Source of the DNA: a virus | Reading direction: 5' to 3' (one strand) | Virus record (IMG/VR): IMGVR_UViG_3300033144_002153 | Span: 1-32,066 of that record | DNA: 32,066 nt | Shown here: positions 1,673 to 31,625 of the stretch, piece after piece | How the letters are laid out: every line of letters begins with the position of its first letter | Position numbering within the stretch: position 1 is the stretch's first letter | Made by a program: the position numbers and the translations under genes | Notes under the pieces: generated by a model | What the model was told of the DNA's origin: nothing | What the model saw: only the letters and a program-made list of their open reading frames with translations | Databases searched by the model: none

Positions 1673-1700
1673 ATGACATGGCCTAACGCTCATGTAAACT
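1673..1700 (+). promoter_or_regulatory. predicted leaderless promoter for gene at 1707
   Basis: ATGACA (-35, 1673-1678), a 16-bp spacer, and TAAACT (-10, 1695-1700) lie six bases before the ATG at 1707. A transcript would begin at or next to the start codon. No Shine-Dalgarno sequence is present. Confidence 0.4.
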
Positions 1701-1706
1701 ATTAAT

Positions 1707-1910
1707 ATGGCCAGGAAGGACACTCTAGAGGGCATCTCTGATGAGATCCACGCGATAAGAACAAAAGACCTAGAAAAGATAAAAGATAAGCTACACACCA
1801 TAGATAAAAAAGTATCGTTAGCATCACTAAGAATCAATGGGGCATGGGGAGCTATAGTCTTATTAGGCGGCGGGTTGTGGTTTATCGTCCAAACCATGCT
1901 AAACCAATAA
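1707..1910 (+). CDS. small coiled-coil protein with C-terminal membrane helix
   Basis: A 67-residue protein. Residues 1-40 are charged and heptad-like (IHAIRTKDLEKIKDKLHTI). The last 20 residues form one hydrophobic helix (AWGAIVLLGGGLWFIVQTML), so it should be a tail-anchored membrane protein with its coiled coil in the cytoplasm. Such small proteins are common in phages, sometimes as holin-like or accessory membrane proteins, but nothing here fixes the role. It lies directly before the terminase gene. There is no Shine-Dalgarno; see the promoter at 1673. Confidence 0.7.
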   Translation: MARKDTLEGISDEIHAIRTKDLEKIKDKLHTIDKKVSLASLRINGAWGAIVLLGGGLWFIVQTMLNQ

Positions 1911-7281: not shown

Positions 7282-7292
7282 TTAAGTGATTG

Positions 7293-7317
7293 CTGGGGGC
7301 TTCGGCCCCCGGCTTTC
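7293..7317 (+). terminator. intrinsic terminator after capsid gene
   Basis: CTGGGGGC, a UUCG tetraloop and GCCCCCGG form an 8-bp GC-rich stem (7293-7300 with 7305-7312, one G-U), followed by CTTTCCCTT. The extra-stable UUCG loop and its place 12 bases after the capsid stop support termination or mRNA 3'-end protection. The U-tract is interrupted, so read-through into the next genes is likely. Confidence 0.75.
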
Positions 7318-12932: not shown

Positions 12933-12960
12933 TTGACATATATGCCCTATAGTTTATCGT
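12933..12960 (+). promoter_or_regulatory. predicted leaderless promoter for tail chaperone
   Basis: A perfect -35 TTGACA (12933-12938), a 16-bp spacer and TATCGT (12955-12960) lie six bases before the ATG at 12967. It begins two bases after the tail tube stop. TATAGT at 12948 is an alternative -10 but is too close to the -35. No Shine-Dalgarno precedes the gene. Confidence 0.5.
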
Positions 12961-12966
12961 TTCAAT

Positions 12967-13371
12967 ATGGCGATGATTATACGTGGTGGTAGTAAGCCGC
13001 AAGAACTAGTAATAGGTGATGTGACATTCACAATAAAGCCGCTTGAATGGCAAGAGCGGCTAGATCTGGGACAGTACATTAACCAGAAGCACGGAAAGAC
13101 CGTTGTCGATAAACACTCCTATACAAAAAAATTAATAAGTGTTTGCGTGAAAGACGTTAAAGGAATAACTGACCAGCACGGGGCTAAGTACACTTTGTCG
13201 CTAAATAGCTCAACGGGATACCTCACGGATGAGTGTGTCAGTGAGTTATGGCAGCTAAACTTCTTACCAGAGTTTCTTGAAAAGGCCATAGTTATAGCTA
13301 GAAGCCTAGTCCAAGACCCTAAATCAAAAGTCAAAGCGCTTAAGAAGCGGGCCTCTAAAAAAAAGAAGTAG
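12967..13371 (+). CDS. tail assembly chaperone, short form
   Basis: A 134-residue protein between tail tube and tape measure, the position of lambda gpG-type chaperones. It has a beta-hairpin start (QELVIGDVTFTIKPLEWQER) and a Lys-rich end. The last codons before the stop form the slippery heptamer A_AAA_AAG, so most ribosomes would make this short form and a fraction would shift -1 into the frame ending at 13853. Chaperones of this type bind the tape measure protein before the tube polymerises. Start chosen at ATG 12967 in line with the leaderless promoter. Confidence 0.72.
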   Translation: MAMIIRGGSKPQELVIGDVTFTIKPLEWQERLDLGQYINQKHGKTVVDKHSYTKKLISVCVKDVKGITDQHGAKYTLSLNSSTGYLTDECVSELWQLNFLPEFLEKAIVIARSLVQDPKSKVKALKKRASKKKK

Positions 13372-24996: not shown

Positions 24997-25780
24997 TCCA
25001 GTTGTAATACGTGTCGAAAACCTTGTCCAAACCGCCGCGAATAGCAACACTGATTGTCCATGTCGCATTACAAGACGAGTATATCCATAGCCAGTACTTT
25101 CTAGGCTTTCCATGCTTCTCCCAAGAAAGCTCGATGTTCTTAGTTCTAATGTAGGACAGCTGATGGCACGATGACCTCGGGGCGATGGCATAGCCCAATG
25201 TAATGATTGTCGCTCCCGCATACCAAAGGGCTTCAACAGCTGTAGGCTTAAACCCGGCGCACATCATATAATAACCAGTCTCACTGGGAACCTTGATCCT
25301 GCTGATGTTGGGATTGTCTGGGTTCTGATTGTCTAACACCCAATGAGTCTCTCTACCCTTGTCGCATATCTCCCTTGCATAGGGCAGATCGAACCTAAGT
25401 GACAGCGAGCAGATGCCGTTATAGTTGTCGTGTGGGTTTGCTGAGTCAGCACCGGCTGATTGTTTTCTGTGGTACAGCCCCTTTATTCTGTCTCCGTTTT
25501 TGTCGTAGACGAAGCAGGACTCGATTGCACTAATCGCGTGTTCTCTAAGGGGACTAACATCGTATCCCTTATCGACGAGCCTTTGCACAACCGCTGCGAA
25601 CCATACCGGCCAGTTGTCGGAATCGGCATCTGCAATTGGGACTTTATGTCGGTCAAGCTGCATGCACCCATTTTGTGCAAGATAGTATTTCTTGATGTGG
25701 GTAATCGGGTCTCGCTTAAACTCTTCGATTTCTTTTCTTTGTAGCTCAATCTCTAGCTCCCTGTTGTTTGTTGCTGCCAT
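24929..25780 (-). CDS. uncharacterised 283-aa phage protein
   Basis: The function is unknown. The first 35 residues are a charged helix (RELEIELQRKEIEEFKRDP). The body contains KYYLAQNGCM, PHDNYNGICSLSL around residue 120, ETHWVLDNQNPDNPN, a hydrophobic ALWYAGATIITLGYA segment, and several conserved-looking His, Asp and Cys. I recall the H-D-N-Y-x-G-(I/V)-C-x-L-S pattern from other unassigned phage proteins; the repeated helical hydrophobic segments could be an alpha/alpha barrel. The start overlaps the upstream stop (TAATG), with AAAGG as ribosome site. It is the last gene of the minus-strand operon. Confidence 0.7.
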   Translation of the reverse strand: MAATNNRELEIELQRKEIEEFKRDPITHIKKYYLAQNGCMQLDRHKVPIADADSDNWPVWFAAVVQRLVDKGYDVSPLREHAISAIESCFVYDKNGDRIKGLYHRKQSAGADSANPHDNYNGICSLSLRFDLPYAREICDKGRETHWVLDNQNPDNPNISRIKVPSETGYYMMCAGFKPTAVEALWYAGATIITLGYAIAPRSSCHQLSYIRTKNIELSWEKHGKPRKYWLWIYSSCNATWTISVAIRGGLDKVFDTYYNWTKHSRPDKTHPTRMCSELSILP

Positions 25781-25974
25781 TATTTTATTACCTTTGATCT
25801 GCATTCCTGACAGCACCTGTTGTGGTTGCCCTCACTTGTAAATCTTACACCACACGTTATGCACTCCCGCTTCTTAAACAGGTTGCCGATGGGTGGCATG
25901 TCTAGAAGCTCACGCATGATGTTTATCGATGTCTTAGCCTGTATATAGTTGTTTGGTTCTCTACCTGTTGTCAT
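25780..25974 (-). CDS. small zinc-ribbon protein, 64 aa
   Basis: Positions 38 onward carry CITCG...CCQEC, a four-Cys zinc ribbon, after a helical N-terminal part (SINIMRELLDMPP). ATG at 25974 is preferred, with GGGGGGCAG before it; the frame is also open to a GTG at 26022. Such short ribbons often bind nucleic acid or a partner protein. It is coupled to the following gene by TAATG. Confidence 0.6.
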   Translation of the reverse strand: MTTGREPNNYIQAKTSINIMRELLDMPPIGNLFKKRECITCGVRFTSEGNHNRCCQECRSKVIK

Positions 25975-26105
25975 CTGCCCCCCAGCAAAAAGTTTGGTGA
26001 CGACCCACGAAGGGCCGCGCACCAGGCTTGTTTTGGATAACAGCTAAGCCACAACGCTATTGCTCTATTTATATACATTACCGCTGAGCAAGCGGCACCC
26101 GCGAA

Positions 26106-29928: not shown

Positions 29929-30645
29929 ATGAGCTTTTTTCATGGTGATTCAAAACGCTGGCTGGCTATATCTGATCTACAGATTCCCTTCCAGCACCCG
30001 CAAGCATTAAGGTTCTGCAAAGATCTTATGAGAGAGTTCCGCATCAGTCCCCAGAACGTATTGAACTGCGGAGACGAAACAGACCAGTATTGGGGCAGCC
30101 TATATGATCATGATCCAAATGCTAACCTATCAGCAGTAGAAGAGATCAAACAATCCAAAGAGATCCTAAAAGAGTGGTACTCAGAGTTCCCTTATATGAA
30201 GCTATGCACATCTAATCATGGTGACAGATGGAAGCGTAAGGCGTTTGCAGGTGGCATACCTCAAGAGCTAATGCGTAACTATGAAGATGTGATGGAGTCC
30301 CCTGATACCTGGATATGGAAGAAAGCATGGCACATTGACGCAAAGTTTCCTTTTATGATAGAGCACGGTGACGACTGGGGGGGCCAGTACCCGCATCAGG
30401 TTGCTGCCATCCACAACGGAAAATCTACCATCATGGGGCATCATCATTCAAAAGCTATCGTTACTCACATCCAAAGGAAGGGGGGGCTTGATCCTATCTG
30501 GGGTGCAGTTAGCGGCGCGTTAATTGATTTCGAGAGCTACGCCTTTCACTATGCGAGAAAAGCTAAGTACCACCCCGTTATGGGAGCCACAGTGGTCATT
30601 GATGATGGCCGCACACCTCTCTTTATTCCAATGGGTGATAATTAA
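29929..30645 (+). CDS. calcineurin-like metallophosphoesterase
   Basis: A 238-residue protein with the family's metal-binding motifs in order: SDLQ (residues 15-18, variant of D-x-H), NCGDETDQ (46-53, GD-x-x-D), SNHGDR (variant of GNH-(D/E)), MIEHGDDWG (GD with a preceding His) and GHHH (about 169-172). It would hydrolyse a phosphodiester or phosphomonoester with two metals; phage members have been linked to nucleotide or DNA processing, but the substrate cannot be read here. A Gln replaces the usual His of the first motif, as in some phage homologues. Confidence 0.8.
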   Translation: MSFFHGDSKRWLAISDLQIPFQHPQALRFCKDLMREFRISPQNVLNCGDETDQYWGSLYDHDPNANLSAVEEIKQSKEILKEWYSEFPYMKLCTSNHGDRWKRKAFAGGIPQELMRNYEDVMESPDTWIWKKAWHIDAKFPFMIEHGDDWGGQYPHQVAAIHNGKSTIMGHHHSKAIVTHIQRKGGLDPIWGAVSGALIDFESYAFHYARKAKYHPVMGATVVIDDGRTPLFIPMGDN

Positions 30646-30653
30646 TTATTGTA

Positions 30654-30682
30654 TTGACGTTTGAACTGTATAAATATATATA
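30654..30682 (+). promoter_or_regulatory. sigma70-type promoter after phosphoesterase
   Basis: TTGACG (30654-30659), an exact 17-bp spacer and TATATA (30677-30682). Its RNA would start near 30689 and run into the hairpins at 30693 and 30720 before the next gene. Confidence 0.55.
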
Positions 30683-30692
30683 ACTGTCACTC

Positions 30693-30706
30693 CACCTATC
30701 AAGGTG
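30693..30706. other. small hairpin CACCT / AGGTG
   Basis: CACCT (30693-30697) and AGGTG (30702-30706) pair around ATCA. It would be close to the 5' end of RNA from the promoter at 30654. Confidence 0.45.
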
Positions 30707-30719
30707 ATGTGTGTCTACA

Positions 30720-30761
30720 GGGTAGCCGCATAGGTTGATCGCTTGACCTATGTGGTTACTT
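30720..30761. other. long 19-bp hairpin in leader
   Basis: Bases 30720-30738 can pair with 30743-30761 without a gap: 13 Watson-Crick and 6 G-U pairs, closed by a TCGC loop. All six wobble pairs are of the kind that favours an RNA-level structure on the plus strand. No U-run follows at once, so simple termination is not indicated. The 3' arm contains the TTGACC used as -35 by the next promoter. Confidence 0.7.
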
Positions 30762-30770
30762 AGTTATCCT
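30743..30770 (+). promoter_or_regulatory. predicted leaderless promoter for gene at 30777
   Basis: TTGACC (30743-30748), a 16-bp spacer and TATCCT (30765-30770) lie six bases before the ATG at 30777, the same geometry as at 12933. The -35 is buried in the 3' arm of the long hairpin sequence. Confidence 0.45.
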
Positions 30771-30776
30771 TGTACT

Positions 30777-30971
30777 ATGGCAAAGGATGACTACCCAGAT
30801 GATGATGATACTGAGCTAGGACCGCGCAACACCCTTTTCTATGAACGCTACAAAACCAAGTATGAGCGCAAATGTATGGGTCCAGATGATTGCAAGCGTG
30901 AGTTCACCACATTCAATCAACACAGACGCCTTTGTAATAAGTGCCGGAAGCATCCTGTATACGATCTATGA
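30777..30971 (+). CDS. small acidic zinc-finger-like protein, 64 aa
   Basis: The N-terminus is acidic (DDYPDDDDTEL), followed by an aromatic/basic helix and two Cys pairs, CMGPDDC (C-x5-C) and CNKC, which could bind one zinc. ATG 30777 is chosen over an upstream in-frame ATG at 30750 because the latter lies in the hairpin and would add a non-conserved-looking leader. No Shine-Dalgarno. Function unknown. Confidence 0.6.
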   Translation: MAKDDYPDDDDTELGPRNTLFYERYKTKYERKCMGPDDCKREFTTFNQHRRLCNKCRKHPVYDL

Positions 30972-31462: not shown

Positions 31463-31559
31463 GTCAACCCGCCGAAAACTGATATGCGCCTAGTCAAAGG
31501 ATCATCTCAAACGTAGTAGAGTACGCTCCCAATATCCAGACATCTTAACATCTGTATTC

Positions 31560-31588
31560 TTGACTAATGTAGTCAGGGATAGTACTAT
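31560..31588 (+). promoter_or_regulatory. promoter for gene at 31626
   Basis: TTGACT (31560-31565), an exact 17-bp spacer and TACTAT (31583-31588). The start site would be near 31595, giving a leader of about 30 bases with ACTAAGGAGACAAG as ribosome site. The remaining stretch from 31463 to 31559 shows no gene. Confidence 0.6.
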
Positions 31589-31589
31589 C
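31578..31589. promoter_or_regulatory. perfect palindrome over -10: operator candidate
   Basis: GATAGTACTATC is a perfect 12-bp palindrome covering the -10 hexamer. A further half-site GATAGT lies at 31605-31610, between the start of transcription and the gene. A dimeric repressor bound here would shut the promoter. Confidence 0.55.
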
Positions 31590-31625
31590 TATGTATAGAC
31601 ATTCGATAGTAACTAAGGAGACAAG

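Follow-up and report, generated by a model that had tools for sequence, protein, structure and literature searches.

In phage T7, intergenic hairpins are cut by RNase III, at sites that usually contain an internal loop. Pairs of a long untranslatable and a short translatable transcript are represented by the LUTI RNAs of yeast and by tisB of E. coli, whose long mRNA form is inactive. In most relatives of the phage studied here, a hairpin and then a T-run, that is, an intrinsic (Rho-independent) terminator, stand at the 3′ end of the capsid gene, and leaderless mRNAs are exemplified by the lambda cI mRNA, named as such in a review (PMC9031893). The locus described below resembles each of these in part.

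The locus belongs to a linear virus record of 32,066 bases, all of which was analysed and which we call the window. Terminase and capsid genes were identified in it by family search, and its right end carries small early-type genes. No DNA relatives of the window were found in the phage collection. Relatives of the capsid protein turned up in dozens of contigs from uncultured viruses, and also in genomes of Variovorax and Leptothrix; this suggests a phage group with proteobacterial hosts, without pinpointing the host of this particular phage. Between two genes on the same strand we find what is most likely a terminator-like intergenic hairpin next to a leaderless promoter. The features of the locus are as follows.

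29929–30645, plus strand: upstream gene, a metallo-phosphoesterase (phrog_221; PHROGs E 5e-41)
30654–30682, plus strand: outer promoter-like site, TTGACG-17-TATATA, matching 9/12 consensus positions; predicted start ~30689
30693–30706, plus strand: small hairpin of 5 bp
30720–30761, plus strand: stem-loop of 19 pairs with loop TCGC and six G-U pairs, from sequence, folding and shuffles
30743–30748, plus strand: putative inner −35, TTGACC, with which the 3′ arm of the stem begins
30762–30793, plus strand: second predicted hairpin of ~11 pairs, the AUG lying in its loop or directly next to it; it forms only in RNA that comes from upstream
30765–30770, plus strand: putative inner −10, TATCCT, 6 nt before the ATG, within the second hairpin's 5′ arm
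30777–30971, plus strand: gene 30777, encoding a 64-aa four-cysteine zinc-ribbon-like protein (phrog_13335, E 7e-5; homologue in the related phage locus L002)

Starting 75 nt past the stop codon of the phosphoesterase gene, the stem stops 15 nt short of the ATG of gene 30777. Its arms (30720–30738 and 30743–30761) form 13 Watson-Crick pairs, six of the 19 pairs being G-C, together with six G-U and no A-C pairs. Folded alone it reaches −25.2 kcal/mol (z −6.9), and the 111-nt region around it also folds better than expected (z −5.2). The reverse complement reaches only −12.8 kcal/mol, so the structure is better in the rightward RNA. No other uninterrupted stem in the window is as long, the runner-up on the plus strand having 12 pairs, and when the whole window was shuffled 400 times (first-order Markov), one shuffle reached 19 pairs. 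All six positions that depart from Watson-Crick pairing read G·U on the plus strand. Had a perfect DNA repeat decayed by transitions without selection on RNA, half of these would be expected to read A-C, and six of six G-U would arise in about 1 in 64 cases; the pattern thus moderately favours an RNA role for the stem. On re-reading, the positions and letters that an earlier note on this DNA had given for both promoters, the stem and the ATG proved exact, and its unbroken stem with six G-U pairs was confirmed. The small hairpin that it placed before the stem does exist as five base pairs, but is not beyond chance (z −0.7).

Like the intrinsic terminators that follow the capsid gene in the relatives, the stem is a strong, stable, G+C-containing stem-loop lying in the coding strand of an intergenic region just past a gene. 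It differs from them in being long, in having six G-U pairs, in lacking a clean U-run and in overlapping the promoter of the next gene. The sequence after it (TTAGTTATCC or AGTTATCCTT) is a weak U-tract. The stem passes a loose terminator scan and is the sole terminator-like match between 30600 and 31700, where 0.5 would be expected. Its calculated terminator score is borderline, ranging from −18 to +5 with the point at which the stem is cut. Downstream of its capsid gene this phage has another strong hairpin (~7291–7313; −25.9 kcal/mol for the 43-nt region), whose own T-tail is poor (TTTCCCTTAT), and the poor tail at 30761 is therefore compatible with termination. The capsid hairpin adjoins gene 7333, which itself has a TANNNT-6-ATG start. 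As a long, predicted double-stranded stem between phage genes, it also resembles the RNase III hairpins of T7; unlike most of the T7 sites, it is unbroken.

Gene 30777 has no Shine-Dalgarno sequence in the 20 nt preceding its start, and its putative promoter has the layout TTGACC-16-TATCCT-6-ATG, with 9/12 consensus matches. In the −10 placed 6 nt before the ATG and in the missing Shine-Dalgarno sequence it resembles the genes of leaderless mRNAs (PMC9031893); from this layout the inner promoter would be expected to fire so that the mRNA begins at the AUG or right beside it. It differs from them in that its promoter elements are also arms of RNA hairpins, and here the likeness comes from the DNA letters only. 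The pattern NTGAC[AC]-16-TANNNT-6-ATG, formulated post hoc after the gene starts had been viewed, occurs three times on the plus strand of the window (1673–1709, 12933–12969 and 30743–30779) and nowhere on the minus strand, compared with at most one occurrence in each of 300 shuffles. The three genes concerned (1707, 12967 and 30777) all lack a Shine-Dalgarno sequence, and we regard their starts as a candidate leaderless promoter class. The suggestion of the earlier note that the inner promoter is of a leaderless type gains strong support from this architecture, which genes 1707 and 12967 share exactly and which shuffles seldom produce. Among gene starts picked by hand, TANNNT lies 6–7 nt before the ATG in 8 of 17 that lack a Shine-Dalgarno sequence vs. 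1 of 21 that have one, and before 3.8% of other ATGs. An automatic set of ORFs (≥80 aa) gives a weaker excess, with the motif at that distance in 5 of the 23 ORFs lacking a Shine-Dalgarno sequence. The phosphoesterase gene starts with TATAAT 7 nt before its ATG, and a Shine-Dalgarno sequence precedes the capsid gene. Among the relatives taken together there is no such excess, and leaderless architecture as a trait of the whole phage group was rejected on that ground.

The double use of bases proposed in the earlier note, for RNA structure and for a promoter, holds, the −35 lying within the 3′ arm of the stem. The second hairpin is by itself modestly unusual (z −2.8). When a long RNA is folded, both hairpins form and the bases flanking the AUG at 30777 are paired on both sides, whereas an RNA beginning at 30777 can form neither. 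Because of these paired flanks and the lack of a Shine-Dalgarno sequence, RNA entering from upstream is probably not translated in this folding model, in agreement with the earlier suggestion of an untranslatable upstream transcript. A predicted untranslated upstream RNA beside a shorter translated form is the arrangement seen in LUTI RNAs and tisB; the long RNA here is putative.

We consider it about an even chance that the stem is a hairpin marking a transcript boundary between two phage genes of the same strand and adjoining the leaderless promoter of gene 30777. From the established sequence, predicted folds, statistics and recurring promoter architecture, we infer the following course of events. 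RNA begun at the weak outer promoter, or arriving from the phosphoesterase gene, would fold into the 19-pair stem just past that gene, and the stem would terminate the RNA or shield its 3′ end. In RNA that reads through, the AUG of gene 30777 would sit between paired bases with no Shine-Dalgarno sequence and be poorly translated. Gene 30777 would be transcribed from its own leaderless promoter, packed into the hairpin, and the RNA beginning at 30777, free of both hairpins, would be translated from its 5′-terminal AUG. Promoter and hairpin may share bases for compactness. The locus is a compact assembly of familiar parts and not a new type of system. A stronger version, in which one stretch of bases is promoter, terminator and translational lock together, with the leaderless −35 and −10 within the arms of two hairpins and transcription from upstream crossing the promoter to yield an untranslatable mRNA, appears to us very unlikely. 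As a hypothetical further step, the 64-aa zinc-ribbon protein may bind the stem and so regulate itself.

The earlier note had read the locus as two stacked promoters giving either a leader or a short regulatory RNA. Its base sharing and leaderless-type promoter stand, its separate small RNA gained no support here, and a terminator or 3′-end hairpin of the phosphoesterase gene had been left unweighed. In such a reading a regulated RNA starting near 30689 would exist in order to be an untranslatable leader, or would end at 30765–30775 and be released as a hairpin RNA of ~80 nt; we judge this unlikely. A promoter-like site does stand at a fitting distance, the inner promoter elements sit in two hairpin arms that form only in a long RNA, and the plus strand holds 15 promoter matches of the TTGAC type vs. 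4.7 in shuffles. A purpose-made leader or small RNA requires a real outer promoter, however, and the candidate is weak. The outer elements (TTGACG at 30654–30659 and TATATA at 30677–30682, with a spacer of 17) have the letters claimed, but they match the consensus at 9/12 positions in sequence of ~80% AT, where the opposite strand does better (10/12). The short regulatory RNA is further disfavoured by the absence of a conserved copy in the viral contigs and related loci searched, by the lack of any Rfam 15 match in the window at the gathering score, and by the lack of antisense complementarity of at least 11 nt to the rest of the window (nothing exceeded 10 nt). A known RNA family or a tRNA was considered and rejected, no match being found. 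Base composition at the hairpin gave no signal of a replication origin.

The stem could instead be the trace of a DNA operator, with a repressor on the dyad CATAGGT-N10-ACCTATG (its centre ~36 bp upstream of where gene 30777 starts) blocking the −35 and the RNA fold being secondary. Three ATAGGT half-sites lie within 60 bp at the locus, and a second dyad lies over a −35 at 31555–31581 (TTGACT in TGACTAATGTAGTCA). In L099, a related phage contig, the promoter of a weakly similar zinc-ribbon gene contains a palindrome (ATTATTACTCTAGTAATAAT), and the gene is divergent from a small protein resembling an XRE-type repressor. We nevertheless hold the operator to be quite unlikely as the explanation: it leaves unexplained 12 further pairable positions and the all-G-U pattern of the plus strand, and no repressor gene was recognised adjacent to the site within the window. 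The locus could act as promoter, hairpin and operator at once. A chance inverted repeat without function is favoured by the one whole-window shuffle with an equally long stem and by the failure to find conservation, either in a pattern scan of viral contigs for the stem core (no matches) or with a covariance model, built from the single sequence, that found only the window itself in 0.98 Mb of related phage loci. Its intergenic place between a gene end and a gene start, the G-U pattern and the folding energy make chance highly improbable all the same. Since no relative with the hairpin was found, covariation lends the stem no support. Around the closest relatives of the two flanking genes the layout is different; the surroundings of the phosphoesterase relatives in L002, L003 and L095 were read and contain no such hairpin, and it is also absent at the zinc-ribbon homologue in L002. 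A weak match of the covariance model, L040:8843, was rejected as lying inside an ORF, and another match, L070:1781, as a different, near-perfect DNA palindrome. A transcript-boundary hairpin beside a leaderless promoter remains the reading we prefer.

Several neighbouring arrangements were seen alongside these searches. The phrog_13335 family occurs twice in this phage, as small zinc-ribbon proteins at 25780–26022 on the minus strand and 30777–30971 on the plus strand, and no hairpin comparable to the stem was found at the former. No protein relatives of gene 30777 were returned from the viral contigs or the phage collection search. At 31555–31612, TGACTAATGTAGTCA and a second dyad, ACTATC-N17-GATAGT, lie around the promoter of gene 31626, which is led by a Shine-Dalgarno sequence; these are possible operators. 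The divergent pair in L099 spans 1080–1641, its repressor-like ORF being XRE-like by eye, and the palindrome there is 20 bp long and lies between −35 and −10. L070, from a related phage, has three successive near-perfect palindromes (1748–1845), within and beyond a promoter and all ahead of a 140-aa gene.

If the reading we prefer is true, the phage packs the end of one transcript and the fresh leaderless start of another into ~60 bases, and some phages mix genes led by a Shine-Dalgarno sequence, such as the capsid gene, with a leaderless set that has its own promoters. The set of leaderless genes will probably prove more useful than the hairpin, because its 5′ ends are predicted to single-base precision.
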